Source of the DNA: Tubiluchus corallicola
Taxonomy: Eukaryota; Priapulida; Priapulimorpha; Priapulimorphida; Tubiluchidae
NCBI GenBank assembly: GCA_030141605.1
Contig: JAQGDQ010000945.1
Coordinates: 1-64,000, forward strand
DNA length: 64,000 nt
Reading direction: 5' to 3'
A program made the translations under genes and the position numbers. The notes beneath the pieces are model-generated. The model had not been told where the DNA came from and made no database searches. It worked only from the letters and a program-made list of their open reading frames with translations. Numbering within the stretch: position 1 is the first letter of the stretch; each line of letters begins with the position of its first letter. Positions 19,088 through 59,535 of the stretch are shown here, piece by piece.

Positions 19088-22000
19088 ATGGGGCGCAAGG
19101 TCAACCTTGCGTATCTTAGGCCAGATGAGTGCGAGAAAATTCTCTCCGTCGTTCAGAAGGATTTAGATCTTCGAGAGAAGGAGACACAACGTCTTCGGTA
19201 GGTTTCGGTTCTATTCTGACAAAGTTATCATGTACGTCCATCTAGTTTTTGTATAGCGCCTCGTACTTACTCATGCAGTTAAATGTGTTTTACACAAATT
19301 TTCCCTTTCTTAGAATCAGTAAAATTATTCTTTTTATGACAGTTCTATAGCAGTGCTTTGAGTTAAAGTCATACTAATGTATTAACCTTAAACAAATTTC
19401 TGCATCAGTTGATTCTAGTCATGGCTGTTGACTTGTTGTGTATCAAATGACCCCATACTTGTACGCTGAGGCTTATATTAATGGTACTTGCGTCGTAAAT
19501 GCTGGTATTGTAGACATATAGCCTCATAACTTGATGAAGGTACCACTATATTCACTGTTTATTAATGATACTAGCAAACAAGCTTATTGATATGAACGAT
19601 TGCGTTTAAATGTGGCAGCTCATACAACACATATCATGTAGTTGTATGCTGAAAGAAAAACTGGTGCTTTGCATAGGCCACATTTAATAATGGAATGTAA
19701 ATATTCAATGTATCGGAATTAAATTGCATAAATCAGACACGAGTACAACTTATAAATTACATAAATTAGTTCCAGCTATTGCCGTTGCCGTATTACATAT
19801 GTGAACTCACCTTATTGAATTTGAATCACTCCCCAACTTTTTAGGTAACTTTTGCGTTGACCCACTTTGGCTTGTTCAGCTTTTGTTACGATTTCATAAT
19901 GAAACTTCTGCTGTCTGACTCGGTCTCAAATCGCCCAACCCTTTATTGTTATCATCATGTCACATTATGTTCATAATTGAATTACTTTAAATTTACTTGC
20001 CGATTAGGAAGCTAATTAAGCCTTTATTTTGAATGATAATTGATCAAAATTAAACCAAAAACTCTAAAAAAGCAAGATCAAGTCAAAGCATGTTTCCACC
20101 CGCGGAGGGCATTTATATCTGCTCTTTAGTAAAGAATAAATTATTTTTCTCTAAGTTATGCATGTGCACACACCGACTTATTTGGGGTGTGTTATGTTTG
20201 TGCACCGTTGTAATAATTATTGCGTTGTTTTGTGTGACCCAGTATTCGACACAATGGCTTAGTAAAACGAAGCATAGTGTCGAGTGCTTGTGCTGTATGT
20301 TTAAAAGGATTTTGCTACAAGCTTCTCTGTTCCCCCACTCACTGGTTTGTCCTTAATCTCAACACCTCTAGGCAAATACCTTGTGTACAGTAGCTGGCGT
20401 GGCTTGTGTTGAGAAGGAATGTATGTACCCCCTAGCGTAGGCTGTGTGAGCGATGACTAGGTTAGTCAAGTATTTAAGTTTTTATTCTGAACAGTAGCTC
20501 AGCCGGTTGAAGTAATTAAGCACTTTAACTGAAGTATTTTTACCAGTTTGCGTGTTAGTGAACAAATTTTTTTGTGAGATGCAAACACAATTTCATTTTC
20601 AAACAACAATTTTCTTGCTAGAGTAAGCGTCAAATAGTAATGAAAAAAGCAAACATATGCTTTACAAAGTAATGATAGTACAGATATTGTTATGTGCAGT
20701 AAGCATGCTAAACTCGAATTATTCAAAATCCTGACTTAGCTTTTTCGCTTTACTGTTATGATCCAAGCGTGATTACTCCAGTAAACAATTATAAGTCACT
20801 GGGTGTTTAAGGGATTTATCTGGAAATCATTTATTCGAAAGACGTTAAGCAGGAAGTCACTTATTTAAAATTGAAAGCAATTGTATCTAACTTCCCCTTA
20901 CAAGCCACTACCCGCAAGATTGACGCTCATGCTCATGATATTTTGACATTCTTAACGAACGTCATTTTAAAACTAATAAATTTAAAACTTGAGAAAGGCG
21001 AAAAAGCTGCATGTTTATTCACCTTGATAATGACCGACAACCTCCCGACTTTAAACCTTTCGTTTATGTAGTATTATATTGTTTTTCCGCCATTTCTTTT
21101 CTTATCATTATACATACAAATGTCAATCTTCGTGTTAAACATATAAATATGATTTTAACAGGCTGTAACAGCTCAAAAGTAGAGGTTTGTTGTTATTTTT
21201 TTAAACAAACAAATAATTTCAGTTTCAAATTGTTTCTTCAATTATCTTATATTTTTTACCCTCCAGTTGTCCTCTTTGAGGCTGTTTGTCTAACAGGCGT
21301 TGCTCAATGTTAGACGCTGAATTTTACCAGTTTGTCAACACCTCAGGGCTCTGTTCTTTCACAATCCTATGTTTGACATTGAATGGAGGCTGTAAATTGA
21401 TACTGGCGTGGTTTTTAAGTGCAAGTATTGATAAAGAATGTTAAATCGCTTTTTAAAAGTAAAGTTTTCAATCCCTCAAAAATTTCTCTCTCAAAAATTT
21501 TCTCTCTTTGTTAATCGAACTCGCGTCTTCTGCATTTCGAGTTTCTTTACACTACAGAAAAATTTGATCTTTCTAACACAGAACTTGACTAAGCCAGCTA
21601 CAAAAGGCATTTATAATCTTGATTTTAATAAAAGTTTATACACATTGTGCAGTAGTCAGATTAATAATATGGACTCTAGGTGTATTGCGAAGATGAACAA
21701 AATGCGTTTGACAGCTTTTACTTAAAGAAAATATTAAAGGGAACGATTTGCTAACGTTAATTTATTTTCATAGTATTCTTTAAAGGTGACTGGCTGTTTA
21801 ACAGTTTATGCTTTGGTGCTAGTCTTTTTGAATTTGTTTTCCGTGAAACGCTGAATCATTTATTTATAGATTATGATATTAATCGAATTAAAGATAATAT
21901 ACACTATGTTAGTGTCTGTATCTAATAACTAATTCCAGAGGGCGATACCAATGTTGTAAACACTGTATTGTGGTATACTGTGTTATTAGTGATTGGAAAG

Positions 22001-22515
22001 AAAAAGGGAGTTTATGCTGGCGCTTTCAAAAAACAGAGTTTTCTAAATTTTCAAAAGTCACAGTCAGTTGTGAGCCTTGTGAGTAAAAAAACACTTTAAC
22101 CTACAGGCTATAGCGAAGATCTCTTATTTGGTCTTGTACCAAATACCTGGGTTATCAATGCTAATTTCATTGAGGCCTAATAAGCTCTGTTTATTTACAT
22201 AGTAGTTGCTAGTTTGTGTATGGCAAACATACTAAACAAGATTAGGTAGCACTGTTGTCATTTACTAAATAATAGATATCTCACTGAAAATGTATGCTCT
22301 AAAAGTTATTATTACTATATGAAATGTTGGATGCCAGTAGCTGTGTGTAAATAAGGCACGGTATTCTACTGCTTGTTTGTTGGGTCACAGTGCACATTCT
22401 AACACGAGAATCATACGAAATGGTTCAAGTCACTTGATGAGTCATTGGTGGCTATTATAAATTTCATCTGTGACCGTTACAACCTCGTAGAATTTCCTGG
22501 TGGTGAATTATTAGA

Positions 22516-22554
<39 letters not shown>

Positions 22555-25500
22555 TATATATATATAATGCTATTCGTTGTTTTAATGTAATGCAATGCAA
22601 TGTAGCAATTTTTCATTAATTTTATCGAGATGTGATGTGAGATCACATAATGCAATTGCTGCACTTCAAGCTGCTGCAGATTAATAACGGGATGTGATAT
22701 GAAATGATATAATGCAATGCAATGCAATGTAACTTCATCTAATTTCAACATAATAGAATGCAGTATAACATAATTTATTGTAATTTAGTGTGAGTGGCCG
22801 TGTATTCACAAGAAAAGCGAAGTCACACTTAATTCACCGAGTGTAATGCAGTGCGTATGTTACGTAATTCAGTGACAATGCAATGCAGTTTTCATTGTGT
22901 CCTGTAATGCGTCCTGTAAATTAGTGTATATAACCTGACATGTAGTATTGACATGATGCAGTTATAAGGAAATGTACCAAATATAGCTTTGTTTTTGTAC
23001 TACAACTTTGTATAGTTATTTTAACATGCATTATTCAATAATTATGCTGCATATGTAAGGATGTATGTAACTTAGTATGCGGGGAAATTCTGGCTTGGAA
23101 TAAACAATATTACTTCTTATCACTATTACTACAATAGATAGGTAATGCATTGCAGCATGATAAATGCAGTGCAGTGTTATCTTGATATACCTTCACATCT
23201 CAGTTCAAACACCACCTCACATTTAGCTAGTTGTAAATGTTTTAAGATGTTTTTGCTTTATTTTTGCAGTGTGATCTCAAGGGATGTATCGCAGAAGCAA
23301 GCTGAAATGGGAGTCTTGAGTAAGAAAGAGCATTTTAATGAGAAACATTGCATGCGATGCTGTGCCACTTTTTCGTTCTTTTTCTGGAAGAAACAGCTCT
23401 GTGTAGAATGCAAGTATTTTGTGTGCAAGGAATGCGCCGCATGGGATAAACTGTGCAGTGTCTGGGTATGCAACGTGTGTGAAAAACAAAGGTACATTCG
23501 TTTTTATTAACTAGCCCAGCTAATTAATGATAATGGTTTTTCAGTTTAAAATTAAGGCAGATAAGTTTTCTGAAGTTTTTTTCTATATTCGTAATGTCGT
23601 CCAAAACACTGTTTTTTTCAATGTGCTAGCTGCTAGTAGCAAGTGTGCTTAGTCAATAAGACCTGCTATTACAAGTGTAGAAGTGTAGCAGATTTTTTTT
23701 GTTTTTCTGTTTCGTGCATTGTGAAACACATAATTCAGATTATTCATGCTTCAAGTGCTTTACATTTTGCACGGGATTTAATTTTATACACTTTGTATAA
23801 AGCTATAATTAAGTAAATTGCAGCACGGTAGTATACTTGTATATGTAAGATACACATACATATGCTGTATATGTAAGATGGGTCTTTTAAATGAAACCAA
23901 ATCATTTGTTTTTATCCCAATAAAAATATGTAGAAGATAAGTATAAATTAATTAACCAAACGAATGGGAAGGATGGCGAAAAAAAATCAATTATCGGATC
24001 AGCCACTCCAGCTTGCAACTTGTATTTAAATAAGACCCTGTAACTTTGATTTACAAATTTTTTTATTGTCGCACGCTTTTGTCAAGTTAAGTACACATGT
24101 ATCTGCACATTTTTTGTTTGATAGCAGAGTGGAATAAATAACAGAGCATCCCACATGTTAATCAGATAAGTCACTTTTCAGGTGGATATGTGGCAAATGC
24201 CGTTATCGTGAGGAAGCAGTTGGACCTCAAATCTCTATTCTTTTGAGTTGCAGTTAGTCGTTGCTTATAAAACTCAAGAATAATCTTGCTATATCTAAAA
24301 AAATGTTTAATTATTTTGTGCAGAGATCTGACATTGGCTGCCTGCGATTGGTTCTACTTCAATGTGCGGCAGAAGTTTCGACATTTTGGCAGTTCTAAGG
24401 TCATACGGAGTCTGTATAAACATGGAATTACGGGAAAAACTCGTAAGTTATCAATAGTTTTCCAGCACTATTCAGTCATAAACTGCTTGTATGTTATAAT
24501 TAGTTGTTTTTTAACAATTTTTCTTAAATCTAGAATTATACTAATTTGCACTAAATGTAATGCATTCTGTAGTGCTGATGTTTTCTAGTGTTGCTGCCGT
24601 CAATGTTGCATGCAGTGACCTTGTTTTGGAATTGGACATTGTGCAGAAATCTTGTTATATTTTCTCACAGTCTTTGCTTCCACCGCCTCCACCCCACCCT
24701 GCCCCATTATTATGAACAATAAGCTTGCTTGCCTTTCTATTGTATAAACTGTATGAACCGGAAACGTTTGAACCATTTTTGGTCTCTAATGGGTTTAAGT
24801 AAGTAATAAATTATTTACAAAAACGACTGGATACTAGCTCAGTCTAACTCTAACACATATATTTTGTAAATTTTTTATAAATGTCATCATTGTCAGTATT
24901 TGTCCCTGATTTACAGGTAATGCTAAACAAACTTAAACTAATCAGCTCACCTGAGCTAGCCATGATTTTCATCTGTATTACTCTCAGATAAAATAGTTGA
25001 TAATCTGTTCCCCATGTATTCGGTTGAATTTTTTATCGGAGATTAGTGGTTATGTCTTGGATGTGAAATTCGCATGTGTGAAAGCAGTACCACAATTTTT
25101 TTCTATTCTTGTAATTATACACCAATAGTTGTTGCAGTTTCTAAAATTCTCAAACTGCTTAATCACCTGCACTTTGTTTTATGTTAGGACCCGCAATAGA
25201 AGCCAATGAGACATCAGATTCTCACCGAGAACAACTTAGTGAAGAAGAGATTGAAGTATGGGAGCACATCGAGCAATTAGTAGAACATACGATAGGTGAA
25301 GGACTACGTTACAGTCAAACCAGCACGATGTTTAATCATGCAGATTGTAAGTTTTGAAGATTTCTTTGATTAGAAGCGTTTTTGTCTGAAAGTATGGTTA
25401 CTTTTTTAAACGGTTGAAGCCCGACCTGAGCATAAGATAGTGAAGTTGGTGTGTCGACCAAATTGACTTTTTGAAGGGAAATTTCTGTTTTCAATGAGAG

Positions 25501-28500: not shown

Positions 28501-31500
28501 AAGCTTGAAATTTGTTATAAATGATGGTGCATGAGTAACTTTCAACCATGCATATCATTAAGAAGTTTTTTAACACTTTATTTTGTGTATATCTCTGGAA
28601 TCCCTATTTTTCTACTTTTTCTAGTTTAGCGCTAGTTACTACTGCACAGAATTTCAGAATTGAAATGTGACTTTAAGTTTTTTAAAAATTGGCTACTACC
28701 TAGAAGAACCATCTGCGTCAATTGACAACAACACATATTGCACATTTTAAATTATCACAAAATACTGACATCATAATGGTAAACGCAAATGTAAATCTGT
28801 GAACATATATCAGTGATTGTAAGTCAGCAACCTCTTTTGACGTCTTATTGCAGCTAGAAACTTGGTGATCTGAACTTTCTTGACAGTCAACTCTCAGGTG
28901 CCAGATGGCTTGACTCAGTGCAGGTCGCAAAACTGCGAAATCTGCCATTAGATGAATCATTATACTTGTTCTGTATAAACTGCTTCAATTTTATATGGAT
29001 TCAGTTAACTTTTTCAGGTATCATTGAATTTCAGCAATATCTGGCTGATAACTACCAGTTTTACTTTTGTATAGGAATGAAAACTGTGACTGCGTCAGTT
29101 GACGCATTCTGGTCTTTCTGAGAAGTAAACTTTTTCTGTCTTTCTAGTGTTAAGACTACTGTGTACCTAGGGACAATTGTGTACCTAAAATGAACTTGTG
29201 GATATTGTTTTAAAACCACGTTTGGAATTTTCTAGATGATGGTGTCGATGGAGTAGCTACACCTATGGAGAGGCATGCTATGGTGAAAGAGTTACTTCAA
29301 CAAATGATGAAGGATGTTGACAGATTACCTTTGATGAAGGTAACCCACATTCACGTTTCATGTAGCAGATGAGAGAATGGACTTTTGCACATTGTAGTAG
29401 GACTTTACTTATCCAAACTAACAACTACCCGAGCGTATTTGGATAATTGATTTTTGGCATAAATAATCACAATTAGAAAGCAGAAGCAGTGTAGTTTATG
29501 GAAACTGCTTGTTTCTGCATTGCATGCAAGATGTAACATATCATATTGGTCTCTTTCCAGAGATTGGGTATAAAGGTCATGGTACCTGATTTGCAAATTA
29601 TGTATCTTTTCATCATGTAGACCAAAATTCATAGGGTCATTGGATATTGATATTTATTTTAGTTTTTATTATGTGACTGGACAGTTAATGTTGTCACTTA
29701 CTTTTTTATTTTTAGCTAGTGGCTTTTATTTTAAGATCCTAATGAAAATTTGACAGAAATTTATTTCATTTAATCTCGTTTGGTCACCTCACATTTTTTG
29801 AGTGCAGTATTCATTGCTTAGAGAATAAGAAATAACACATACTGTTTGCATGCATTCTTTAAGGATGGAGAAATAATTGACGAAGATAAAGAAGAACTTG
29901 CTCAAACATATGAAGATGTTCTTGCTTCTGCTATTATTAATAAGGTAGATATTTGGTGTGTCATTTTTCTGCCTTGTTTAGAATGTTTTTAAAGCATGCC
30001 CACAAGGGTAAGTGAAAGAAATAGCAGTGTTAAATGCCGTTTTTTTGGTTTTTTTGGCAATTTCAGAACGAATGTTTCGGCTTTCTTGTCACATCTTTTC
30101 ATCTTTTTGGGTCTGATAAACAAGTAATTTAACAAAATTGGCTATATTTATTGTTACTTTTGGAAATTTTAAAGTAATATGACTAGGATAAGCGGTTGAA
30201 AAATTTCAACGGTCAGAATAGTGGCATTGCCATGCCCAAGCTTGTGAAAATTTTTTGACATTTTTGTTAACTTTTTTTAATGTTTACGTTGGCTCATGCC
30301 TTGATATGTTATGTATTCAAATTCGTTTTTGTTGTAAAGCCAGTAAGCAATGCTGTCCTAATACCAAATTTAAAAAAGTGGCTGTAGTGTTAATTTTAGA
30401 CATTTAGAGAAATGCAAAAACTCATAATAAGTTGTTAACTGGTGCATTATTTACTTTTAGATTGTTTATGATCATCAGTGTCGTGTAGCTAATTCAATGC
30501 ATCAAAATATAGAAGACGAGCAGCGACTGAACAAATGTTTAGAAATTTGTTGGCCACTTGGCGAAGTATGTGCTTAGCTGTTTTATATCATCTTCTCTTT
30601 ATAGATTAATAATGTGTGCAATTGGGAAAAAGGTATTGGAACATCTATTGTATAGTCATAATACTTTATCAAAACTCTAATTTATATAGTAGAGTTTATT
30701 CGAGAATGTGGTTTAGCTTGACAGTAAAAATACTATCATTTTCTCAGATATTTCTGTAACTTTCAATTTTCTTACATGATTAAATGATGTTTTGTGTTTT
30801 ACATGTGCTGTATGCTTGTTGAAGCACTTATTGTCACATATTGCAGCACCAATAGCAATTTTTTAAACCCAGTACTAAGGTGAATAAATTGTTGTGGCAA
30901 GACGGTAACCTAATTAATTATGAAGGATACTCATTTAGGACGAGATCTTGAATTCAACGACCACCCATCTGTTGGCTGACTAGACTTGGTATTGCTTAAC
31001 TTCGGTCACTAAGGAACACTGAACTTGATCAGTGAATCAGATTTAGTAGTCTTTTTGGCCAATTTTATTTGCCCTATGTGTAAAAATCATTAAGCCAATT
31101 TCACACATTTGTTCCATGATCTAGCAATTGGCAGAGGTGAAATAGTAGTGTATTTTCATTACATCGTTTTTGACTGTCAGTTAGGATTTGCAATTTTCTC
31201 ATGATATTGTTACTGCAAAATGCCAAAAAATGGTGTACTTAAATTACTTAAATTGTCTAATGTGGACTTTTGGTGACAAATGTTTTGTTACTGGTGGTAT
31301 ATTTTAGGCTGATGTCTCTGGTATGAGTAATGAAGATGGGATGGTTAGCTCACCCGTAGATGGTGGTATGGTTCTTGCACTTGATAGTGACGAGGAAGTA
31401 GATGCTCACTGGGAGGGACTCGATCATCTACAGTATCACACGGTAAATTTGCTGTTCTTCGTGTTATCACATCTTTAAGTTGGTTATTATATATGCAAAT

Positions 31501-34500: not shown

Positions 34501-37500
34501 CTTATAATAGCCATCGCCACATACGCTATTTTTAATTTGAAATAATTTTGAACTGAATTCAAAATTGATGTTTGTGATAAGACAAATTTGTATTATTAAC
34601 CAAATAGTAGCATTAAGAGCAAAATTGTCCCAAAAATTTATTTATTTAAACAGTGAAAATGCTTAGTACATTGTACAGTCCTTTGGCACCCAAAGAAATA
34701 AGCAAAGCATCTTCTAGAAAAATGATGATTGTTAAGTGTAAATTTCAACTTTATGACATTTAAATAAATTCTGATGACTCTGAAGGAATATTTTTACTAA
34801 ATAATAAATATACTTGTTTTATTGCAGTCAGTTATTTGATAATAAGTTTGTAATTAATTACTATTTAAGTAAACCAGATATAGAGTTTAGCTGTATGGTT
34901 TAAATTTTTGATGCTAGTTGAATGAAATGAGCTTTCTTAAAGTTACAATAAAGGCTAGCTTCCTTCCTAAGTTAGTGACAAAAGCACTCATTTTATGAAC
35001 TTTATGATTTTTTCACTAATCTGTCATAATTATAATTGACTGTTATATGTATTTTGTTGTATTTTTCAGCCGCATACTGATCCCTCATTCAGGTTGAAGC
35101 CTAAAGATTGCATCATCAAAGCTGGTGATCCAGTCAGATTCAGGTCGAGACCCAAAGGAACTAAACCCATTGGTTTGTCTTTATTGCAGTTTTTAGAAGT
35201 AATTTAGGAAATTTCTAGCCCAGCTCTTTTCAGTGATATTGCTTCAGATATACTGTTAAATAAAACTAAAGTAAAACAATAGCAAGTTTCTTGGAGGACT
35301 TCAGAATAAAACAAATTACTTGACTATTTTTGAGCTTGATTTGTCTACTCTGTACTCGTCCACTCCTTAGTTGTCATGTTTTAGTCTTTTGCTACATAAT
35401 TATGGTGAATATGATGATTTTAGAGTGCCTGTTGTTGTTTTCACGCAGATGTATTTTGGTACAAAGATACGACTGAGCTGATGGGGGAACGCTATCATGC
35501 ATACTATGATGAAGGCGTACATTATCTTGAAATCTACGACACAAGCATCGATGATGCGGGTGAATATTTATGCGTAGCTGTCAACGAAGTTGGAGAGTGC
35601 AGCACTTATTTTGCTCTCAGTGTAAAAGGTAATGTCTTAGTTAAGCACTATGTATAGCACTTGGTGGAATAAGTGTTTAAAAGCGAATTTTGCATATCTT
35701 TATCTGCATGTATGTGCATATATTTGTGCACATTTTGTCAAGAATAAACTGGTTATAAACATAAAATTGCTCGATGCTAGGGATTTTATGAGTATGCAAA
35801 ATACTTGCAAGTCAGTGTTTGCTAAGTATGAATATTAAACACAAGGCTAAAAATGCAAGAATTTCACACAACTTCTTACATTTACTTCATGCTCATATGC
35901 TTTGCTGTTCAACACTTTGGCAAGCAGGTGTGGAAAAGTTTGGACAATTAAGAAATACTTGACCAAATAGATACTTTACGTTTCTCACATGAATGTTAGC
36001 ATAAACACTGACGTAGATATCTTTATTGGTATTATGTACTACATGTGGCTTACATGACATTTTTCTTTTATGTTTTGCACAAATTGCTAGTTACGCTGGT
36101 GTTTGTTATGTTTTGTAAACACACTGTTTACATTTGTTATTAATTTTTAGTGGTATGACCTATCTAGTGCTAAATGGTCCAGAAACGTTTTTTTTGTTTT
36201 AAGAAACCACCAGATTAAATTAAGAAACAGAATTGGTAATTTTCAAAGTTTTTTTTTTCAGAATCAGGCGAACAAGATCGACCGCCCATTTTCAAAGTTA
36301 AAATACGCAATCAAAAGGTTACTGAAGGTGGACCAGCAGAGTTCATGTGTATTGTTGATGGTTTTCCGATTCCTTCTCTGACGTTTTTCCGAAATGGACG
36401 CAGGATTGCAAACAGTGATCGTTACAGCATAGGTAAAAACAAACTTCTAGCAAAACAACATGTACAGTGTTGGTTATTGTGTATAATTTATCACAGAACA
36501 TAGAATAACGTAAGAATTTTGATGATACTATATGATCTGCCTTAAGCTAGGTTGCTCTGCTGTTATGGGACATCTTGAATAAAATTGAAGAGTTTTATTT
36601 AATCAGCAAGTGGTAGGCTTTTGTGAGGTTATTAAATTTTGGGAACCAGCATTAAAGTTAAATGAAACATAATTATAAATTGATGACAGATCCATTGTAA
36701 TTATGTTTCATTTAACTTTAGCGCTGGTTGGAGAAGCAGAAATGAACTATTTGGAACATTCTCAAAAAATTAATGGTCACATGCAAAATGGTGTTTGTTA
36801 TACTTCTTTTGTCACTAATTCAGAAATTGATTCTGTCTGTGTTGTATTTATATTGTATTTTTTTACTATTTCTTGTTTACTATGATAAATTCCACATATG
36901 TCCATTCGTGTAAATTGTTTCTCCAATTTTTTTATTTTATGTGCTCGAAACAATGTTAAACAAACAATAAAATAAACCAAAGACTAAGATCATTCAGTGG
37001 ATGACTACATATAAAAAAAGCGACAATTCGGGTAATATTCAAAGTCATGGTCTCTTTTCAGTGCGCAATTTAAGATTCAGTAATGGTGTTATTTGTCCTT
37101 TAAATGCACTTCTTCCATTGTTTAGAGAGCCTTGGTGGAGGAGAATGGACTTTGGTCATTCATCCTACAACGATTATTGACCATGTAGAATTCAAAGCTG
37201 TGGTCAAGAACAAGCTCGGTACAGCAGAGTGTAGTGCCACTTTGACGGTTGTTTCTAAAGGTAAATGTTGTAATACATAAAAGCATTGAGTTTAGTAAAC
37301 TGAACTCTTAGCAAACTAACTGATTGTTTTGGTGCAGTATTGTCAGCAGTCTTCCTGTTAGATGATTTTGTATTGGTTGCTCTTTTAGTTACTAAACAAG
37401 ACGGTATACCAATTCACCTGATGTACCCCTAATTTTAAACTTATTAATAGAGTATTAGTATGCCGAGTATTTCTCTAAAATGTGTATCCAAACCACGTTG

Positions 37501-40500
37501 TCAAAATTATCTTATTGATTAATTTGTTAACATCTAATAGCAAATTAGGCAGAACTTTAAGTGTTTTTGGTTTCACACTAAAAACCATGTTCTTTAAATT
37601 ATTGCATGATAAATTAGGTAAGATAGTCGACAAAGTAACTTTATTCTTAATAAGAAGGTACCTTATGGAAACAAAAAATTAATGAATTTCATGATTCCCT
37701 TCATAATGAATGGAGATTATGAATTTATTATAAAGATTTATCACACTAGTCTTTTGCTAAATGCAGTTGTTGTGCACTGTACATACATAATCTTCCATTT
37801 CTTGTTAAAGAAATTAAAAGTAAACTTTTGGATGACAAATAATGATGGTGGTTATTATGATTATAATGTTTACATATGTTGTCTATAGGTAGAAGAAGTG
37901 CATCTTTAATGGATCTGTCATCTAAGTTATATGACATGGAAAACAAAATGTTACGCAGCACGGAATCATTATTGTCTCTGTCTTCTGACAAGGTGAGACT
38001 TTGTAACTTTTGAAAGTTTTAACCTTTTAAGTATCAGCCGCGAAACTAAGGTTGCTTAATCGATGATGTTCTGCCTATTTCTGTTATGGTTATAGTTGTA
38101 GTTAATTAAACTGTTAATGATAATTATTTAGTATACAGAGTTACTCAGCTCCTCATTTGACAAAAATAATTTGCTTTGCTGTCAGGTAGTTGTAGGCATG
38201 ACCTATAACTATTGACCTATTGAAAATTTGTTGCTGTGATGCATTTATGATATCGGGATATTGCTAAGAGTCATACTGTACCTTGCATGTAGGAAAACCA
38301 CTATTAATGTGATGATAGTGATTCTTGTTTAATAATGTAGTCGTTCATAAGTCAGTATACTGCTTTTTGTCAGTACTAAAGTTTTGTGTTGGGGTTATCA
38401 AAAGAGCAACAGAATGCTATTTAACATGACTGGCATTACTTTTACCCATAGACCTCAGAAAAGTTCTAGTCGCTAGCCGTTTTGAGTTTTTGGTAGTTAG
38501 CTTTTTGACATTTCAAATAATACTTGTGACAGTCATTATTGTACTTCAAAAAAGTGAGCTGTCTCTACCATGTTCGGAAGTAACACTTCATTTGCAAGTT
38601 GACTAGCTATCCTTGTTTGGTGTATTGCACTGTATAGGGTTTGGTGCCTGTCTACCGACTGGATGGATTACAAAATCGTATTGTCAACGTAGTAGAGTCT
38701 GTCATGCAGCTTTGGCTTATCGAAAGGCTATTGCTACATTAAACTTCGCATATTGTTACTTTATTTTGTGGAAAATGTTAATAAGCCCTTTCTTCATTGG
38801 TTCCTAAACTCTGACAGTTTGCTCAAAGTACTCGGTTTGTTGCCACTTTTCAATATTTTATCCCAGACATTTCTAGATCTTCTTCAACATCTTGTAAAGG
38901 CAACCCTAGGCTGCTTTTCTGAAAAATCTTATCGAAAATTTCTCAGTTTGATACCATTTTGCATCAAGCAGAATGCTAATAAATACATCCTGTCATTTAT
39001 AAATTTGGAAGAATTCTATTCCTCTGAGTCCTGTATTTGTTCCTCATTTTCTAACTGTGGAATATGGATCTTTATCTTGAAGGCTACTGGGCTTGTTTAA
39101 GGCAATCTGCATAAAAAAATTAAAAAAATATTTCACAATTTTAGAGCCTTTTCAGCTATTTGTATCTCTAGAGCCTATATTTATTTTAGAACAAAATAGT
39201 CTGCCCAAAATAAATTAAAAATTTAAAAGTTTATTCTAGAATTTTCTTCATAGCCATTACTTTTTTGTTTGATTCCAGGGTGATTCACCAAGAGCACCAC
39301 CTAGGCGTAAGAAGAAACCCATTTCTGTGACTGACATACCAGTTTGCAAAGAGCTGCAAAGCTACTATGACGAGGTTTGATTTGTTAAATTTTACTGAAC
39401 CTTGTAGGGCATTTTTGATTTCACAATTGCATTTCTATGATTTGTTTTTTATTTTTCAGTTAAAAGCAGCTAAACAACAAGAACCTATTCAACAAGCAGC
39501 ATTAGAAGATTTCTATACAAAAGCTGATGCAGTGTAAGTGTTTTCACGGTATAGTTCCTTTGTCACTAATATGGATAATTTTCATGCAAAGTTGTTGCAT
39601 TTGCACTATGACATGCAGCTTTTGGACAATTCTGACTTTAACATGTAGATGTTAGAATTTATGAATAATTAATATTTGTTTTAGTATAGTCCTACTTGTC
39701 ATCTAATACTTGTTAGCTAATTAGAGTAATTTGTTTATATAATAATGATAACTGTAGTAGTAGAAGAATGTGAAAGATCTAGCCCATATTACAAACAAAT
39801 TCTCCTGTCCACTGTCAATGTGCACTATTTATTCACCAATATTTACAGACTTGTTTTTAGTTTTGGGTTAATGCTTTGCTTATTTATTATCATTACAAAA
39901 TTTTCAAGGTTTCTTCACTAAATTCGTCTCCTATCATTTCTAACTGATTTTCATGGGTATATGCAAATTAAAAAACAAATTAACCATTTAATCAATACTA
40001 GCACTAACACTAATACTAATAAAATTGCCACATTGTTTTCAAGTATTATTTCTAGAGCTTACTTAATTGCAAAACCTTTTTTGATGCTGAAACTTTATAA
40101 TTGTTTGTAAGTGGAGGTATTGCCTCCGTAGAATGTAAGTGCCTTATTTTTCTCAGCGACACTTATCTAGTAGCTTGTGTGACAAGCTTCTCAGACTGAG
40201 AATGTGTCTTAATCATTGTCATAACTCTCTGGAATGCAAGAGACCGCCTTTCATTTTCTCATTCGAAATGAAGGCAAGAAGTCGTTCATATTGATTTTAC
40301 TCATATGCAGTGATATGCTGAAGGAAGAGCTAGTTGCCAAAATAGAGCATTGAATTTCAGTTTGGCAACAGCCACTTTCATGACAACTTTTGTTCTGTTG
40401 CCTTTTCAGTACGATTGACTCGCCGAAGAAAGCAAAGGCTTTGCACTTGCCACCTGCTAAATCTGAACCTAGCAAACCAGAGCCAGTTTTAAAGCCACCT

Positions 40501-43500
40501 CAGTTGTCACCGATTGAGAAGTTGAAGCCAAGAGCAGATATGTCAAAAATTAGGCCACCTTTGAGAAGCAGAACAGCAGATGATGAGCAGATACCTTATC
40601 AGGTGCAGTACATCTCAATGTATCCATAACTGATTCATTTCTGATAAGGAAAATTTTTGCACTTAAGCTGTATGATATTTTCTGAAGCTTTAAAATGCCC
40701 TTTTGTTTTAGGATGCAAAACCTAGTCATTTTTAGAAGTGCTTGTATGCCTCTTTACTTCTGAGCAATTGGATCAAAGTTTTGAGTAGAAATTGTATTCT
40801 TTAGAGTGAGGATATTAGAGTGAAGGTTAAAACTCAAAATTACGATAACATCGAAGTGTATTATACTGTTATATAAGTATTAGGAAATAGTCATATAATA
40901 CCTTGATTCGGGTATCTAAATGATATGCCAATTTTACCACTTGAACCAATTACTAATTGAACCACTTTTGTTTCAAAATCCTGTCAATTTTTTATAGTAC
41001 ATGTTCCTTTTAAATAGTCATGAACACTTATTTAAAAAAATTCTTTCTCATTTAAATAACGATGTGAAGGTTATTTTGGTCTTTTAGTAACTTTCGTGTG
41101 GAATTCACACTGGTATAAACAATATTCTTGTTTTGTATAAATGCGGTTTTAATGTTAAGTGCAATAATTGTGAATATCACATGAGTTTGAAAATATTCAA
41201 TATGTAAAAATTGTTTCCCTGACTGTACTTTACCTTTTAATTACCTGTAATTTTAACTTTCTGTGAAGGTGTAAATGCTGTCTTGCTTATTTTATAGGAA
41301 TTTGAAAAGCAGTTTTATGGCGGAGAGAGCAACATACCTAAGCCGATTGTCGGTGCTGGTCTCAGACACGTCTTTGATGACGATGATCACATTCTTATTC
41401 AGCCAGAGGGTGACAGTAGAATAGACTGCGGGCTGAAGATTATCGACCCAGCGCAATACAAACGAGACTTCTATGTGAACAAAGTGCCCCAAACAGATCA
41501 AGATGTACTAAAGTCACCCCAAAAGAAGCAGGTGAAATAGTTTTGCATATTTACAAGGGCCATCCTCGGTACAATAATTAATGATGTTAGAAGACATTTA
41601 CATGTGTTTCACTTACAGGAAATCAAGAATCATAGATACATAATGCTAGCAGTGTTTATATAATTTGATCTGAAAACTGTGGGAATATTTTTTCCTCGAG
41701 AAATTTTTACTACTTATACCTACTCAATTGTGTTGAATATGAAAGCTATCATATTGCCAGGGTCACATTTTGTCAAAAGTTAAACAGCATGTGCATTTGA
41801 TGCTCTTATTGTTTCTGGAAAAAAATTCGTATCTACAATCATATGATAGTCATCATCATCATCTAGAAAGATTTTTGACAGTTTTTGCACAGACTGAAGG
41901 AAGTTTTACGACAGCTGTTTACTGTTTCAGTGAATAGTCATTGCATCATGAAAAGTACCATTTTTTATTTTTTAGGTGGAAAGCTCTATTAAACTGAAAG
42001 GTCAGGTAGCCGAAGAGGCTCCCTATACTCCCATTGCTTCAGTTACCCCACCAGCTGGTGCTACAGTTACATTGTCACCACAAATGTCTCCTCAAGTTCA
42101 GCAGATCTCTCTGTCACCTCAAATTAAGCAGAAGCCACATACCGGCAAGGTTATCGTTTCTCCACTTATCTCACCTGTACGCAAACCTCCACCTGACAAT
42201 GTTACTATTACTGCACCTGTGTCTAAAGTGCATAAGCCACCACCCATTGATGTGACAGTTTCTGCTCCAGTGGTGAAGGACTATCAGCCTGCACCAACTG
42301 ACATCACAGTCTCTGCACCATTATCCAAAAAACCAGATATTCCATCCCCATCTGATGATGTCATCGTTTCTGCACCGTTGTCTAAGAAACAGGGACCTGT
42401 GCCATCTGACGTTACTGTCTCTGCACCAGTGGCTAAGAAGCAAGAACCTGTGCAATCTGACATCAGTGTTTTTGTACCGGCATCTAAGAAGCGAGAACCC
42501 ACACAATCCGATGTTACTGTGTCTGCACCAGTGTCTAAGAAACGCGAACCAGCACCATCTGATGTTACTGTTTCCGCACCAGTGTCCAAGAAACATGCAC
42601 CAGTGTCTAAGAAACATGAACCAGTACCATCTGATGTTACTGTTTCTGCACCAGTGTCCAAGAAGCATGTGCCTCCAGAAGAAGGAGTTACTGTCACTGC
42701 ACCTATAATAAAGAAACCTCAGCAACCCGAAGTCACCATTTCAGCTCCACTAAAGCAGCCCAGAGAACATGCCATTCTCACAAATGGCTCTATGGGGTAA
42801 AACTTTTTTGCTATTATTTTTCTTTTTTAGTACTAATATTTACTTGGTTTACTACGTTTAATTGGTAGATGCTGAAAATTAGGGTTTCTTTTTGTATTTG
42901 GTGGCTGCTTCTGGGCTCAAAAAATTGCCTCTAAAAGTTTTTTGCAGTAACAAACATTAAAATACTTGTCAGAGTGAGCCTGATCCAGATCTCAGGATTT
43001 TCATGGAGTTTGAGAGAACTAGACTTTGATCCTGAGCAAGCTATACCTTGAAATTACTGTGCTTGTTATTAAATTAATAATGTATTCGTATTAATAACAT
43101 AGTCCTATTAAACAGTTGTTCCTGAACAACCTGCAGCTATGATTAACTCTTTATTTCAGGTTTAGGTAAATTTAAGAACAGAGAAAGCCTATGATTGCAT
43201 TGACATTTGTGTACTGAAAGTGCTTGCTTATGCTTACTTTGTGAAGATTAACATTAGCTTATCAGCGTTGTTTGTCACCATATGCTTTTATTGTCAGTAG
43301 TAGACTATCTTTCTTTTACTTTTGTGTCACTAGCTAAACTGATGTAAACTAACCTGTATTAATGAGTGGATGATCTCATAAACAGTTATGCGTAATTCAG
43401 AAAAAAATTATTGTCTGTATTTCATGTTTGTGCATTTAGAGGGGATTGAGTTAATTTCTTGTATATTTTGTGGAATAACCAGCTCATTAAACATCCAAGT

Positions 43501-45082
43501 CAGCAGCCATTAATATGTTTGAGCTTCGAAATTGATTCCAACTAGTTTTTTTAGTTTGCATTCGGTTCAAACCCAAAATTATAAATTCGAGTAATTCAGC
43601 ACTTCAACTGCATCAGCTCTTTATCATTAAAATGTTTTAAACGTCATATCATTAGCACTTCTGTGCTCAATTTTTAAACAAATTATTAGTGTTTTTACTG
43701 CAGAATGAAATCAAGTAATATGCATGATCTTTGTGAGAAACTTTTTATTAGTGATTCAAAAATTCGTTCAAAAATCTTTAAAATTGAATTCGAGTTCGAT
43801 TCAGATTCAGAAATACTGAAATTTGGTTTGATTCAAGTCACATATTCGATTCAAATTGAATTCACTTACTGGTAGAGAATGTTCACCCCTATCCATTAAC
43901 CATTTTTCTTAAGCTACCAATTTCACTTTCAACCATTCATTAACTAATCACTGATCCATTTGGTCCAGTACTATGTGAAAAACTTGTCTCCCTATTTGAA
44001 AGACTAATTGGTTCTCAATTTCTACAGAGAAGAGTCTATCAATGTTCAAACACCTTTTAAAGACAAAAATAATGTTAGACGAGAGAAGTCTGTGGATAAA
44101 TCACCCTTGCATCAACCTGAATCAGGCATTATAGTCAACACTGTTGTAAAAGGTAATTATTATATTTATTAGAATATATTTCACACAATGTAATTGGATA
44201 GGTGCCTACTAAGACCATAAATTTCAGGCTTGTATTTAGTTAATTGATGATAATTATTTGCCTTTTGAATGGCTGGAGCGTGAAGTATGAAAATCTATTA
44301 CTATTTTGTTTGTTGTAAAATGTTTTCCATACTTTTGTTTACAATATTATTAACAGCACATTTGCAGAAGTCATAATTTGATATATCATGTTTTTTTAGA
44401 TAAACTTCCCACTAATAAGTTTGAGACGACAAGTGACACTGATTTCAAAGTGAAATTGGCTCAGAAAAAGAAGTAAGTATATCTTGCATTCTGATGTAAA
44501 TACTCTGTTTTTTTCAAGGTCTGATTATTTTTGAATAACAAAAAACCTCTGAATTGTATGTGCAATTTTTACTACAATTTTTGCCCATTAAATACGTTTT
44601 TACATAATATTTGTAAAAATAAGTAACCATTGCTTACCTAAAAACAGCTTTTATTAATAAGATTGTATAATATATAATTATTTAAGACTGTTTTTATTTG
44701 TTCTGCAGTGATTTCAAGGAAAAACTAATCCTTGAACAACATTCATTATATTTTAACGCATACTTAGAAACTTTGAATTACCACGTAATATATGCACATA
44801 AAATGCCTTGCTTAAAAAGGCAAACGAAAGTTTAAATCATTCTTATCTCCCACCAAACACCTTGCTGCGGGATATCTAAAAAAATGATGTAAGCTGGTGG
44901 ACAGCACGAAGCCATGCATAACAAAACTTCAGCAATTCATCCACAAATTCTGCTATTCTACCTGATGAATTCTTTGTTTTAATCACTGGATCAATTATCA
45001 ATGCCTATGCCTTTAAAGCTTCCCAAGGGACTTGGCTTTTCCTTTAAAAAAGTTAGTAATGTTCAAAGATCTTTTCAAGCAT

Positions 45083-45131
<49 letters not shown>

Positions 45132-47318
45132 GCAATAAATGCAATTCAAATTTAAAATTGTATAGCAAACAGCCAAAATTATGTAGCAAATAAAATTTTC
45201 AGTAGCATTAGAATGCATTTGATAAGGTTACATGTTTTTGTATCTTCTGTAGGAATGATGAACTTGCCAATTTGCCCTCAGTCAAACAACTGAAATCAAA
45301 ATTTACAGAGCAGGATCAGCCAGTGCTAAAGGTACCAGTATTTCTTGTTGTAGATAGTATAGATGTGTATTGTTTAATAAAATAACCATTGGTTAAGATT
45401 TCATGTTTCCGTAGAATGCTAGTATTCAGTTTTAGTAGCAAATTAACCTGATTACCTATCAAACTTAAAAAGATTCTGGCATTTTTAAGAGTAAATAGAT
45501 AATAATCTTTTATTTTTCTACTAATGATAATAATTGTTTTTGTTTATGCAGTTGCACAGCATAACTGCGAGGGACCTATCTCGGGGCAACTTTGAGAGAT
45601 TAAGGCACCAGCGTTCTCCCATGAGCCCTGATCATCCTGCTGACATTACTGTAAATACTAGCAATCTCCAACAGATGCAGGGCAATGATTTGATGTTTAG
45701 TGCCCCTAATCTCACTCACAGCACTCCGGTGAAGAAAGAATCATCTAAATCTTATAAATTTGTAAAGACAAATCGTTTCTATCAGGACGACAAAGACAAA
45801 ACCGTGAGTCAGCCGGACTTGTCGTCTGTTGGCTTGCATGTACCAAAAAATAAGGACTTTCATCTCACTGCTAATAATAGTTTTTATTATATGGCTAATG
45901 ATCTGTCTCCACCAGTAACAGTGCCTTACCGTAGTGGTCAAGTAAACCTAAACACTTCGAGTCCTATTCTTTATGGTAGCCCCACTGAACAAGTAAAATC
46001 ATCTTCAATCAATGTGCAAAATCAACCTTTTGTCTCTCCTAATCGTCCTAATGATGTTCCAGTAATGACATCATCGACACCGGGTCTGATGTCAACTAGT
46101 CCAAACCGACGCGAGGTAAAGAGGACGTTCAGTAGCAGCCGTAAAACTGAGACAAAAACAAGGTCAAATAAGCATGGTGATCCTTCACTTCCTGTGCACA
46201 GCATGCCGGATTTGGTGCATGACTTTAGGGAGCCTAATGAACCAGGAAACTTATTGAATTCTCGAAAGAAATTTGACAGAGAAGATGACTTACCACACGC
46301 CATACTCGATAAACCTACAACAAGCTTGAAAACGACTAAAACGGAAATACATCGCAGTCCTGATGGAAAGAGGAAAACAGAAAAAGTTACTAAAGTGACG
46401 CGGACGACGACGACTACGACAAAGACAGTGAAGAAGCTTCTGAATGACAAAGGAGAAGTTGTGGATGCTGATGAACCAGTAGCAGATAGAGCAAAGCAAA
46501 CACATGACACATCACCGAAAGAAAACGTCAAGAATAATGTTGAACCACCACCAGATTACAATATCAGGGAAGTTGCTCGCACTCCTTCACCGGATTACGA
46601 AACTAAGAATCTCAAATCTCCTGATATCGATTATCCAGGGACGGAACATTTTTGGGACAGACAGGGCTCTACGAACTTGTATGCAGAACCTCAGTTTCGG
46701 CCAATTTCTCCTGAATATTTTGAGTCTATGGAAGAGTCTTCTCGATCCAAAGTTCACCGAAGTCAGTCAGCACGTGAGCCACGCCACGTGCGACCCGAAA
46801 AAATGCGATTGCGAGAATCATATACACCTGCTGCTAATCACCCAAGAGTGAACCAGCTGAAAGCTGCCAGCTTTCAGGACGTTACACATTCCAAAAATCA
46901 ACATCTCACTAGAAGTCATGGTGAAGAGGTTGACCGTAGCAGACCCAGGCCGGGGACAAATGAAATTTCCACCATCAAAGAAAACTACGAGATGGGAAAT
47001 GAAAGCAGGCCTTTTGCACAAGGCAATCACATAGCAGCAAGCAACCCGAATGTGACTCGGAGTGATTACCAGAATACCCCCCTTCACACAAACTCGATAT
47101 ATTCTAACCTATCTTCCAGTCAGCCGGATCTAAGCAATGTCCATTCCGTCAGACGTAGCCGAGAGGAACCTCTTCACTTGCAGCGAGTGAAGAAACGCAA
47201 GCAACCAAGCGCTGTACTTGCTAGAGCAAGCTTCTGGGATCAGAGAGTCGAACAGAAGAAAGTCTCCGATCAGGAAGCAGGCTTAGAGTACTATCCTCGA
47301 ATGGACCCAATAAATTAA
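19088..47318 (+). CDS. Rab-binding-domain protein with two I-set Ig domains (Slac2/MyRIP-like N-terminus)
   Basis: Coding exons: 19088-19197, 23270-23491, 24324-24442, 25188-25346, 27017-27100 (optional), 29236-29339, 29864-29944, 30461-30565, 31308-31442, 32443-32633, 32963-33142, 34247-34484, 35070-35172, 35449-35628, 36262-36432, 37126-37260, 37889-37992, 39279-39374, 39460-39533, 40410-40602, 41298-41531, 41976-42796, 44028-44152, 44400-44472, 45253-45331, 45552-47318. The sum is 5,883 nt, 1,960 aa, with phase kept at every junction. Domains: Rab-binding helix and zinc finger (1-about 150), acidic linker, Ig1 (about 577-670), Ig2 (about 671-772), Pro-rich repeats (about 1007-1280), disordered basic tail (1373-1960). 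No signal peptide or transmembrane segment is seen. The Rab-binding domain predicts binding of Rab27 or a relative on secretory organelles. Intracellular I-set domains usually bind cytoskeletal or muscle proteins, so an organelle-to-cytoskeleton adaptor role is inferred. There is no C2 domain, so it is not a synaptotagmin-like protein. Confidence 0.88.
19198..23269 (+). other. Intron 1 of the Rab-binding/Ig gene
   Basis: A 4.07-kb intron. It contains a (TA)n run at 22518-22566 and, from about 22580 to 22900, many TAATGCAATGCAATG words. Open frames up to 100 aa (for example 20090-20356 and 21011-21313) are unsupported by similarity or splice sites. Confidence 0.65.
22518..22900. repeat. (TA)n microsatellite followed by degenerate TAATGCAATG repeats
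   Basis: About 48 bp of alternating TA leads into about 330 bp in which TAATGCAATGCAATG, GATGTGATRTGA and related words recur with spacing of roughly 60-110 bp. This is low-complexity sequence with no coding sense. Confidence 0.75.
24182..24257 (+). other. Possible alternative terminal exon repeating the end of the zinc finger
   Basis: A good acceptor (CACTTTTCAG) lies at 24181. Spliced from exon 2 (phase 2), the frame reads RWICGKCRYREEAVG and runs to TAG at 24255-24257. It resembles the W-x-C-x-x-C...R end of exon 2 (WVCNVCEKQR). Use of this exon would give a truncated protein of about 136 aa with only the Rab-binding part. It could equally be chance. Confidence 0.3.
27017..27100 (+). CDS. 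Candidate symmetrical (phase 1-1) exon of the Rab-binding/Ig gene
   Basis: Acceptor AACCTCTTTCAG and donor GTAAGT enclose 84 nt that open in exactly the phase left by exon 4 and close in the phase needed by the exon at 29236. The 28 codons can therefore be included or skipped without a frameshift. The peptide contains HSCLKEVLLQLSQSLLSSM, predicted helical and Leu-rich. It weakly echoes the next exon (HAMVKELLQQMMKDV). It may be an alternative exon, possibly duplicated from its neighbour. Confidence 0.55.
27878..27910. repeat. (ACATAG)n microsatellite
   Basis: Five hexamer copies with one variant, followed by ATTTTATTTATCTCC. The layout (hexamer run against a T-rich flank) resembles the tail of a retroposed element on the minus strand, but no body is recognisable. 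Confidence 0.7.
28705..29120. mobile_element. Possible MITE bounded by inverted GTCARTTGACGCA motifs
   Basis: AAGAACCATCTGCGTCAATT near 28705 is repeated in inverted form near 29095-29120 (GTCAGTTGACGCATTCTGG, then TCTTTCT). Both contain the palindrome-like TGCGTCARTTGACGCA. The 415-bp span has no coding sense. No target duplication is evident. Confidence 0.35.
30957..31020 (-). repeat. 5S rRNA-like fragment, minus strand
   Basis: The plus strand reads CGACCACCCATC, then GACTAGACTTGGTATTGCTT, then AACTTCGGTCAC. This is the reverse complement of the 5S rRNA region GTGA-CCGAAGTTAAGCA...GGCC...GGATGGGTGACC with several changes. It lies in an intron of the Rab-binding/Ig gene. It is degenerate and lacks a complete 120-nt gene. 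Confidence 0.5.
31891..31933. repeat. (TA)n microsatellite
   Basis: An alternating TA run interrupted by ATACATACATA, in the intron between 31442 and 32443. The rest of that 1-kb intron holds the SINE at 32115-32430. Confidence 0.9.
32115..32430 (+). mobile_element. tRNA-derived SINE, copy A, with (ATT)n tail
   Basis: A pol-III-like head with a B-box-like GGTCGTGAGTTCAATACTG is followed by a shared body (GTGGTATTTAAGGTAAAA, then TAGTCTCTGTTATGTAAGTG, then TAGATTTGTTATTTA) and the end CCAAAAGCCGATTTTGAATA, AAGG and a TTATTATT tail. The minus-strand sequence at 59536-59772 shares head, body and tail in the same order. The insertion ends just before the exon at 32443. Confidence 0.8.
33717..33916. 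mobile_element. hAT-type MITE with perfect 8-bp target duplication
   Basis: A 200-bp element with ends CAGTGGCGGCTCGT and, reverse complemented, CAGTGGAGGTTCGT. It is flanked on both sides by an identical GAAATAAC (33709-33716 and 33917-33924). An 8-bp duplication and CAGTGGCGG-like ends are typical of the hAT superfamily. It is non-coding and lies in the intron between 33142 and 34247. Confidence 0.9.
35070..37260 (+). other. Tandem I-set immunoglobulin domains (four exons)
   Basis: Each domain is split over two exons. Ig1 (35070-35172, 35449-35628) begins PSFRLKPKDC and has FWYKD and DDAGEYLCVAVNEVGEC, the typical F-strand. Ig2 (36262-36432, 37126-37260) begins RPPIFKVKIRN and has EFMCIVDGFPIPSLTFFRNG, then EFKAVVKNKLGTAEC. 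Ig1 keeps the F-strand cysteine but has Arg/Ser where the B-strand cysteine belongs. Ig2 keeps the B-strand cysteine but has Ala at the F-strand position. Neither can form the canonical disulfide, which fits intracellular Ig domains of the titin/palladin kind. Confidence 0.88.
36644..36729. repeat. Intronic hairpin, about 36-bp arms with a 13-nt loop
   Basis: The left arm, 36644-36680 (AACCAGC, then TAAAGTTAAATGAAACATAA), is matched by the inverted right arm 36694-36729 with about three mismatches. It lies in the intron that splits Ig2 (36433-37125). The size is that of a pre-miRNA stem-loop or a very short palindromic MITE. I cannot tell which from sequence alone. Confidence 0.75.
37993..39278 (+). 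other. Introns downstream of the Ig block, no supported content
   Basis: The 1.3-kb intron before the exon at 39279 has open frames up to 115 aa (38753-39100) without similarity or usable splice sites. The introns 39534-40409, 40603-41297 and 41532-41975 are AT-rich and I see nothing further in them. Confidence 0.6.
41976..42796 (+). other. Exon with 11 tandem DVTVSAPVSKK repeats
   Basis: After a Pro-rich lead (TPPAGATVTLSPQMSPQ), about eleven units of roughly 17 residues follow: [D]-V-T-V-S-A-P-V-S-K-K plus a variable Pro/Glu/Ser hexamer. One unit is partly duplicated (KKHAPVSKKHEPVPSD). The nucleotide sequence is repetitive too, which is why long spurious frames appear in every other frame, including on the minus strand. 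It is probably disordered, with many Ser and Thr phosphorylation candidates. Its function is unknown. Confidence 0.85.
42797..44027 (+). other. Intron with AT-rich palindromic repeat at about 43550-43890
   Basis: Within this 1.2-kb intron, 43550-43890 is filled with GAATTCGA, GATTCAAATTGAATTC and similar words and ends in TGTTCACCCCTA. That resembles the AATTCGAA-rich MITE type often ending in TAGGGGTG. No clear left end or target duplication is seen. Confidence 0.4.
44473..45252 (+). other. Intron with (TA)n at 45088-45130
   Basis: A 780-bp intron. Apart from the TA microsatellite at 45088-45130 I see nothing in it. Confidence 0.7.
45552..47318 (+). other. Terminal exon: long disordered C-terminal region
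   Basis: A single 1,767-nt exon encodes 588 residues rich in Ser, Pro, Arg and Asn, without a recognisable fold. Short S-x-P-[DN]-[LV] motifs recur at 45699, 45807, 46200, 47040 and 47118 (SAPNL, SQPDL, SMPDL, SNPNV, SQPDL). A basic, Thr-rich run (VTRTTTTTTKTVKK) lies at about 46390-46430 and a conserved-looking ASFWDQRVEQ near the end. The stop is TAA at 47316-47318. Confidence 0.85.
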
Positions 47319-50300: not shown

Positions 50301-51567
50301 TCAGAGTACATACTATAGCATGTTTTTAGGTTGGTACACAATGACACAAAAGCAGAAGCTCAGTAGGCCTAACGTGGCGTTAACCTGGCATTATCTACCC
50401 GCAGAATAGCTGCGAAATAAAAATCAATAGGAAATATCTGCAGAAAAAATAACGCATAATTAATTAATGTCTGATTAACGAGTGCATTGAAAACAATATA
50501 AACCAATTTTGTCTATTCCGCATCCCATAACGCATACGCATTCCGGATATCAGGTAAACGCCACTCAAGACACGTCGTTGCCCCACCACTAACACTACCG
50601 CCCACAACAAGAATAGCAAATTATTCGGACCCTCATAAATGTTTGATTTCTCTCCCTCTTCAGCAGGCAATAATTTGTCTAAATCAGATCCCAATAGATA
50701 AATCACGAAAATTTGCCGCGTGTTGATTCCTTTTAGAGCCATAAGTAATCAGGTTAATTACTAATTACTTTGCATACACGCTTAATTAACAAGATTCCAT
50801 GTAAGTTTTATGACCCTGTGATTCTGAGAGCTCTGTTTTATTAATGTTCGGCAACGCGAAGGATTGCATGATGATAGTAACAGTTCATGAGAAATTACGG
50901 CAGTGGTACCAAAGTGAATCAATGGCGGATATATTCGCCCGCAATTGGTTTGTTTTAGTTCGCGTAACGGGAAGGATATCTTTTCATTTTGAAAATTCTC
51001 TGGAATATTTAGCATCTAATGTTACCTGGAAAATATGGGCACAAAAAGGATGGTAAATGACAATGTGACTACCTTAAGGTGATTACTTTTCATGTGTTAT
51101 TTCTAGTGCTTCGACTAACGAAGTTATTATTAAAATAGAATCCGTAGAAGAAGGCATTATAAACAGTGCGCTAACTAAGCTTATGCAAAAAAGAATGAAT
51201 ATTGAAAGGCTATGAAAAAGTGAAACACTGTGGTTGTATATATAACACGTATTGCGAAACGAATTCTGTCTGGATGGAAGATGACGTAAACATCGAAGTA
51301 TTGTCATTAACACAGATTGACAAGTGATACGTATATGGTTTGTCTGCAAATAGTTGACTATTATGAAACGTACTACTTTTTCCATTTTCAGGCTATGGCA
51401 TATGCAGGAAAAATCGTAAAGAGCTTCAAGAGGAACAAGTCACACTAGGATGCCGTTTTTGTATCTAACACGTAAAGTTCTAAGTCTAAGCACAAGTCCT
51501 GAATAGTTCCTCATTACACGTAACAAAAAAAATTCAGGCGAGTTTTAACTGCACCTATAAGGTGATT
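47319..51567. other. 3'UTR and intergenic region before the galactosyltransferase
   Basis: The first 600 bp are probably the 3'UTR of the Rab-binding/Ig gene. The remainder is AT-rich. A minus-strand ATG frame at 50464-50742 (92 aa, with a hydrophobic LLFLLWAVVLVVG stretch) is the longest frame here but has no recognisable similarity. Confidence 0.6.
47913..47918 (+). terminator. Candidate polyadenylation signal (AATAAA)
   Basis: The first canonical AATAAA after the stop of the Rab-binding/Ig gene, about 600 bp downstream. An ATTAAA-type variant at about 47726 is an alternative. Confidence 0.5.

Positions 51568-59314: not shown

Positions 59315-59535
<221 letters not shown>

Follow-up and report, generated by a model that had tools for sequence, protein, structure and literature searches.

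A predicted Tubiluchus corallicola gene that probably joins a Slac2-type Rab-binding domain to a pair of I-set immunoglobulin domains

Gene model and coding evidence

The window, that is the whole stretch of DNA analysed, covers bases 1 to 64,000 of a contig 78,402 bases long (genome of 343.5 Mb in 2,344 contigs) and has a G+C content of about 0.34. On its plus strand, 24 exons joined by hand splicing give a single frame of 1880 residues, which extends from an ATG at 19088 to a stop codon at 47318 and contains 0 internal stops (Table 1). The encoded protein would run from a Rab-binding domain through an acidic linker to an I-set pair, a repeat rich in proline and lysine, and an extended basic tail that is probably disordered. 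Each exon border was inspected individually, and the resulting model replaced the automatic exon chains (30 and 33 exons), which were dropped because the zinc-finger exon was missing or truncated in them and because, at low penalty, they included short exons of doubtful status. A first-pass annotation had proposed about 26 exons in one continuous phase; the continuous phase holds from start to stop, and the exon number was close in magnitude, with 24 in our model.

Table 1. Exons of the predicted gene, with encoded features and the basis of each assignment.
Exon	Position	Strand	Encoded feature	Basis
1	19088..19197	+	start codon and SHD1 helix (MGRKVNLAYLRPDECEKILSVVQ...)	melanophilin 2zet_C alignment from Met1; donor rank 1/2
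2	23270..23491	+	FYVE-type zinc finger, eight Cys ligands	FYVE_2 55.7 bits alone; 8/8 Cys as in melanophilin
3	24324..24442	+	SHD2 of Rab-binding domain (WFYFNVRQKFRHFGSSKVIRSL)	melanophilin alignment continues ungapped
4	25188..25295 (alternative end 25346)	+	start of acidic linker	acceptor and donor both rank 1
5	29236..29339	+	acidic linker	open frame; splice borders rank 1, 1
6	29864..29944	+	acidic linker	open frame; acceptor rank 2/8, donor rank 1
7	31308..31442	+	acidic linker	gene model, splice borders
8	32443..32633	+	acidic linker	gene model, splice borders
9	32963..33142	+	acidic linker	gene model, splice borders
10	34247..34484	+	acidic linker up to just before Ig1	gene model, splice borders
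11	35070..35172	+	Ig1, first half	I-set; donor weak (rank 4/6)
12	35449..35628	+	Ig1, second half	I-set best stretch residues 501-589; PDB matches
13	36262..36432	+	Ig2, first half	Ig_3 best stretch residues 598-676; PDB matches
14	37126..37260	+	Ig2, second half	Pfam and PDB matches
15	37889..37992	+	post-Ig linker	gene model, splice borders
16	39279..39374	+	basic/proline stretch with PRAPPR	gene model, motif inspection
17	39460..39533	+		gene model, splice borders
18	40410..40602	+	proline/lysine-rich	gene model, splice borders
19	41298..41531	+		gene model, splice borders
20	41976..42796	+	repeat exon, 12 units of type VTVSAPVSKKxEPxPSD	tandem repeats, unit list
21	44028..44152	+		gene model, splice borders
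22	44400..44472	+		gene model, splice borders
23	45253..45331	+		gene model, splice borders
24	45552..47318	+	588-residue low-hydrophobicity basic tail and stop codon	open frame 45534-47318; composition

When borders were picked by splice score within open frames, the phases were concordant at 22 of the 23 junctions (expected, 1/3), in a test that is not fully independent, since the model supplied both the frames and the range within which each border was sought. The best exon chain on the plus strand (30 exons, and thus different from the 24-exon model) scored 808, as compared to 122 for the reverse complement, 74 for the plus strand between 2 and 19 kb, and 42, 52 and 31 for three block shuffles; some of the same exons had served to train the codon scores, which makes this comparison partly circular. 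Within Ig1 the donor at 35172 ranks fourth of six by splice score and was retained on the basis of Ig homology and frame. The acceptor of exon 6 ranks second of eight, and the two possible ends of exon 4 are equal in phase.

The exons between 25 and 35 kb carry no family match above cut-off, and the join of the Rab-binding domain to the Ig pair therefore rests on the open frame, the splice phase and an oyster entry described below. We consider it very unlikely that two neighbours have been read as one, namely a short effector similar to Slac2 or Noc2, with its end somewhere between 24.4 and 35 kb, and an independent gene for an Ig protein downstream of it. The phases are concordant across the linker, the linker stretch alone (24.9-35.06 kb) has a coding score of 138 vs 28 on the reverse strand, and a single oyster entry carries both the UNC89 and the MyRIP name in the excerpted table; all of this speaks against two genes, for which one could invoke the unmatched linker exons, the 3.9-kb intron between exons 4 and 5 and the 13 AATAAA sites between 24443 and 35069, a number unsurprising at 34% G+C. 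A single gene with alternative promoters or 3′ ends, which would produce one short form with the Rab-binding domain and another with the Ig pair and tail, leaving the full fusion as a minor product, is also unlikely. The internal introns are long enough to house promoters and large modular genes often give rise to alternative products, but the oyster entry, as excerpted, points to one or more transcripts that contain both parts.

We compared residues 1-727 with the genome and obtained 33 matches at E ≤ 0.001. Fifteen of these are exons 1-15 of the gene, in order and on its own contig, while the other 18 cover the Ig part only, the best lying on contig C1968, where an open frame of 1,057 residues contains a row of I-set domains. 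Evidence from Pfam, the PDB, the splice phases and the genome itself, together with the oyster entry, supports the presence of a Slac2/MyRIP-type Rab-binding domain and an I-set pair in one frame, and the fusion is probably real.

Domains and low-complexity regions of the protein

Residues 10-125 match the Pfam family FYVE_2 (PF02318) with 91.2 bits (E 7.1e-26, cut-off 27.2). The best of 12 PDB matches at E ≤ 1 is melanophilin (Slac2-a) in 2zet, with 108.8 bits and an E value of 2.6e-30; residues 1-141 align with it without a gap, 51 of the 141 positions are identical, and all eight aligned melanophilin cysteines are kept. The Slac2/MyRIP-type Rab-binding domain and the eight zinc ligands of the first-pass annotation are borne out by these matches. 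Rabphilin (1zbd) reaches 20.7 bits against the 108.8 of melanophilin, which places the domain closer to the latter, and the Slp4 PDB chains (26.8 and 20.8 bits) are short, with 76 and 53 residues, and represent the zinc-finger part only. According to the excerpted text of PMC11231147, 2ZET is the RAB27B:MLPH complex, in which the SHD1 helix provides a major contact. The designation E14A does not occur in the main text of PMC9988257.

The protein shares with MyRIP (Slac2-c, exophilin-8) the start MGRK, the order of SHD1, zinc finger and SHD2, and the lack of C2 domains, none of which was found in a Pfam scan of the protein up to E 1. An approximate human MyRIP sequence aligns ungapped over residues 1-143. 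Past residue 145 no similarity to this approximate sequence was detected in 500 shuffles per part, with z values of 0.05 for exons 4-6 (231/500 shuffles as high), 0.44 for exons 7-10 (159), 0.43 for the Ig part (167/500), 1.98 for the post-Ig part (25/500), -1.4 for the repeats (483/500) and -1.34 for the tail (483/500); in this only partly verified query residue 751 agrees with the paper and an arginine cluster lies three positions off, so that these values serve as a lead only. The C-terminal domain of MyRIP and melanophilin, Rab_eff_C (PF04698), gave no match when Pfam was run on the entire protein and on three parts of it, and in contrast to MyRIP the protein carries instead two Ig domains, a repeat exon and the 588-residue tail. 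The myosin Va- and actin-binding parts of melanophilin, as far as the excerpted sources delimit them, were likewise not recognised in this Ig-bearing protein. We call the protein Slac2-type rather than MyRIP, since its Rab-binding domain groups with Slac2 and Rab_eff_C was not encountered; judged by sequence, it appears to be a Slac2-type effector with a different C-terminus.

The Pfam family I-set matches with 107.5 bits (E 3.8e-31) over two stretches, in agreement with the two I-set domains proposed earlier. Compared singly with the PDB, Ig1 finds titin 3b43 first (217.6 bits, whole-chain) and Ig2 titin 6fwx (94.1 bits, whole-chain), a first rank that is partly due to whole-chain scores summing several Ig copies in arrays. 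For the pair, the best single stretch is that of Robo2, with 55.7 bits across both domains, and the best titin stretch among the matches listed has 49.0 bits (2rik). Of the short single-Ig chains listed for Ig2, those of palladin score best (2lqr, 43.9 bits; 2dm2, 43.4 bits), followed by titin M5 (37.8 bits), and the extracellular Robo, DSCAM and receptor phosphatases lie in a similar range to the muscle Ig chains. Because titin is first by whole chain and Robo2 by single stretch, the PDB rank does not settle whether the Ig class is muscle or extracellular.

In Ig1 a serine replaces the B-strand cysteine and in Ig2 an alanine replaces the F-strand cysteine. The maximum 19-residue hydropathy is 1.12, with no stretch resembling a membrane helix or a signal peptide. 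We read the Ig pair as cytosolic because one disulfide cysteine is lost per domain, because signal peptide and membrane helix are lacking and because the Rab-binding domain demands it; this reading would fit the lost cysteines and the Rab-binding domain and does not draw on the PDB rank. An I-set pair without the canonical disulfide is a likeness to UNC-89/obscurin, titin and palladin, to which the first whole-chain rank of titin and the presence of palladin among the Ig2 matches may be added. Unlike these proteins, the present one has two Ig domains only and a Rab-binding N-terminus, and kinase, GEF and FN3 domains were not found in the Pfam scan of the protein.

Outside the Rab-binding and Ig domains there is no family match above cut-off in Pfam, and NCBIfam gave no match for three stretches. 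LUC7 (E 0.0034, 17.6 bits vs a cut-off of 33), DUF7571 and Dicty_REP fell below cut-off and were dropped. The linker (residues 146-498) is acidic, with a net charge of -48 over 353 residues, and has weak PDB matches only, the best being colicin D at E 0.52. Within exon 16 the motif PRAPPR is, we assume, SH3-ligand-like. The repeat, first described as having 11 copies, is indeed present, and a split by hand-chosen motifs resolves it into 12 units of 10-24 residues. The last exon agrees with the 588 residues given before, with 588 codons and a stop; its product has a net charge of +16 and few hydrophobic residues. The motif FWD occurs twice in the tail, at residue 1659 (~46650, +) and within SFWDQRV at residue 1852 (~47229, +), and is possibly a short conserved motif.

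Oyster entry and proposed function

We take the oyster identifier CHOYP_UNC89.1.19|m.7848 to come from a transcript that takes its name from the muscle Ig protein UNC89, and we regard the annotation attached to it as a protein match. In the excerpt of a mass-spectrometry table, this Crassostrea gigas entry is annotated as “Rab effector MyRIP” with an E value of 1.02e-38; it is one of 69 proteins of interest tabled from 2,808 detected and shows a log2 fold change of 2.06 towards 29 °C (PMC9575672). Both names on one oyster polypeptide are what an architecture of Rab-binding and Ig domains predicts, the likeness being one of names alone as they stand in the excerpt, and the double naming would be accounted for by a Slac2-type effector that carries an Ig pair. 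The fusion is perhaps common to a mollusc. An Ig-bearing Slac2 or FYVE_2 protein is not described in the open-licence literature among the matches listed, and the only one of these papers to mention FYVE_2 as well as I-set treats them separately in its excerpted text (PMC6959277). The first-pass annotation had called the protein undescribed, which stands insofar as no paper on the fusion was among the matches listed but has to be qualified, since a likely oyster counterpart appears in the excerpt of a published proteome table (PMC9575672).

Concerning function, the N-terminus would bind a GTP-loaded secretory Rab, most likely Rab27, that sits on secretory granules or lysosome-related organelles. 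The Ig pair and the tail may then attach the organelle to a network of filaments, either actin-based or muscle-type, and so substitute for the myosin- and actin-binding parts of vertebrate MyRIP and melanophilin. We give a probability of roughly one half to the reading that one gene encodes a cytosolic Slac2/MyRIP-type effector which binds a secretory Rab and tethers the organelle to filaments by its Ig pair and tail; within it, we infer Rab27 as the partner, the cytoskeletal target and the tethering itself. The adaptor between Rab-coated organelles and the sarcomeric or cortical cytoskeleton that was proposed from the start is a reasonable suggestion. Only the titin- and palladin-like similarity and the UNC89 name point to a sarcomeric target.

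It is possible, if somewhat doubtful, that the Ig pair is instead a scaffold or dimerisation module for other proteins (e.g. a myosin, a kinase or a membrane protein) and provides no filament anchor, which would make the effector a signalling or docking scaffold. The PDB ranking singles out no one Ig class and Ig pairs bind varied partners, as exemplified by obscurin Ig58/59, which according to the excerpt of PMC10251194 binds titin, novex-3 and phospholamban; palladin Ig domains (2lqr, 2dm2) are nevertheless among the Ig2 matches, and MyRIP-type effectors act with actin in the sources excerpted here. According to the excerpts of PMC4760305 and PMC10511049, MyRIP appears to retain granules within the cortical actin, for the most part by means of its actin-binding region. 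In human stem-cell cardiomyocytes, knockdown of MYRIP lowers ACTA1, ACTC1, NPPA and NPPB (excerpt of PMC7933688), an effect that is suggestive at most.

With regard to the tethering reading, an invertebrate gene that unites the Rab27-organelle grip of melanophilin and MyRIP with an Ig pair suggests that secretory organelles may be tethered to the cytoskeleton in a different way. From a Slac2-type effector of this kind it would seem that evolution replaced the half that links the organelle to the cytoskeleton, whereas the Rab half remained recognisable without gaps. The prediction is that in such animals Rab27 organelles are attached to actin or sarcomeric filaments in the absence of the C-terminus of MyRIP and melanophilin. 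The excerpted review of Rab27 effectors lists twelve, including C2-domain proteins, melanophilin and exophilin-8, which are both linked to myosin and actin, as well as Munc13-4 and SPIRE, and the phrase “immunoglobulin domains” has zero occurrences in it (PMC10511049). We suggest only tentatively, and consider it rather doubtful, that molluscs and perhaps invertebrates more widely possess a class of Rab27 effectors outside this vertebrate list, which would use an Ig pair, and not myosin, to anchor secretory or lysosome-related organelles directly to titin/obscurin-type filaments of muscle or cortex.

Related sequences and neighbouring features

A search of the genome with the FYVE_2 profile gave nine matches at E ≤ 1, of which one, exon 2 of the present gene, exceeds the cut-off and another is exon 1. 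By their motifs, we take locus L002 to be Slp-type-like and loci L003 and L008 to be RIM-type-like pieces. Three weak matches to model positions 1-32 (L003, L004 and L006, at G000:C1594:178369-178718) lie 127 bases apart and look as if they were a tandemly repeated SHD1-like exon. An exon-by-exon search of the genome, which may miss split or distant copies, found no further close copy of the Rab-binding region.

Neither Rfam, applied at gathering scores, nor a tRNA scan gave a match in the window, and among six neighbouring stretches scanned, one has a Pfam match above cut-off. Downstream of the gene, an open frame at 51490-52140 (+) belongs to the Galactosyltransferase family (PF01762, 44.5 bits, cut-off 23). 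On the minus strand, an open frame at 12259-12786 contains repeats rich in Cys and His that on visual inspection resemble CCCH fingers, and it has neither Pfam nor NCBIfam matches. Finally, a long (ATA)n array occupies positions 59315-59535, with 73.7 copies and 97% matches, and reads as poly-Asn when taken as a frame.
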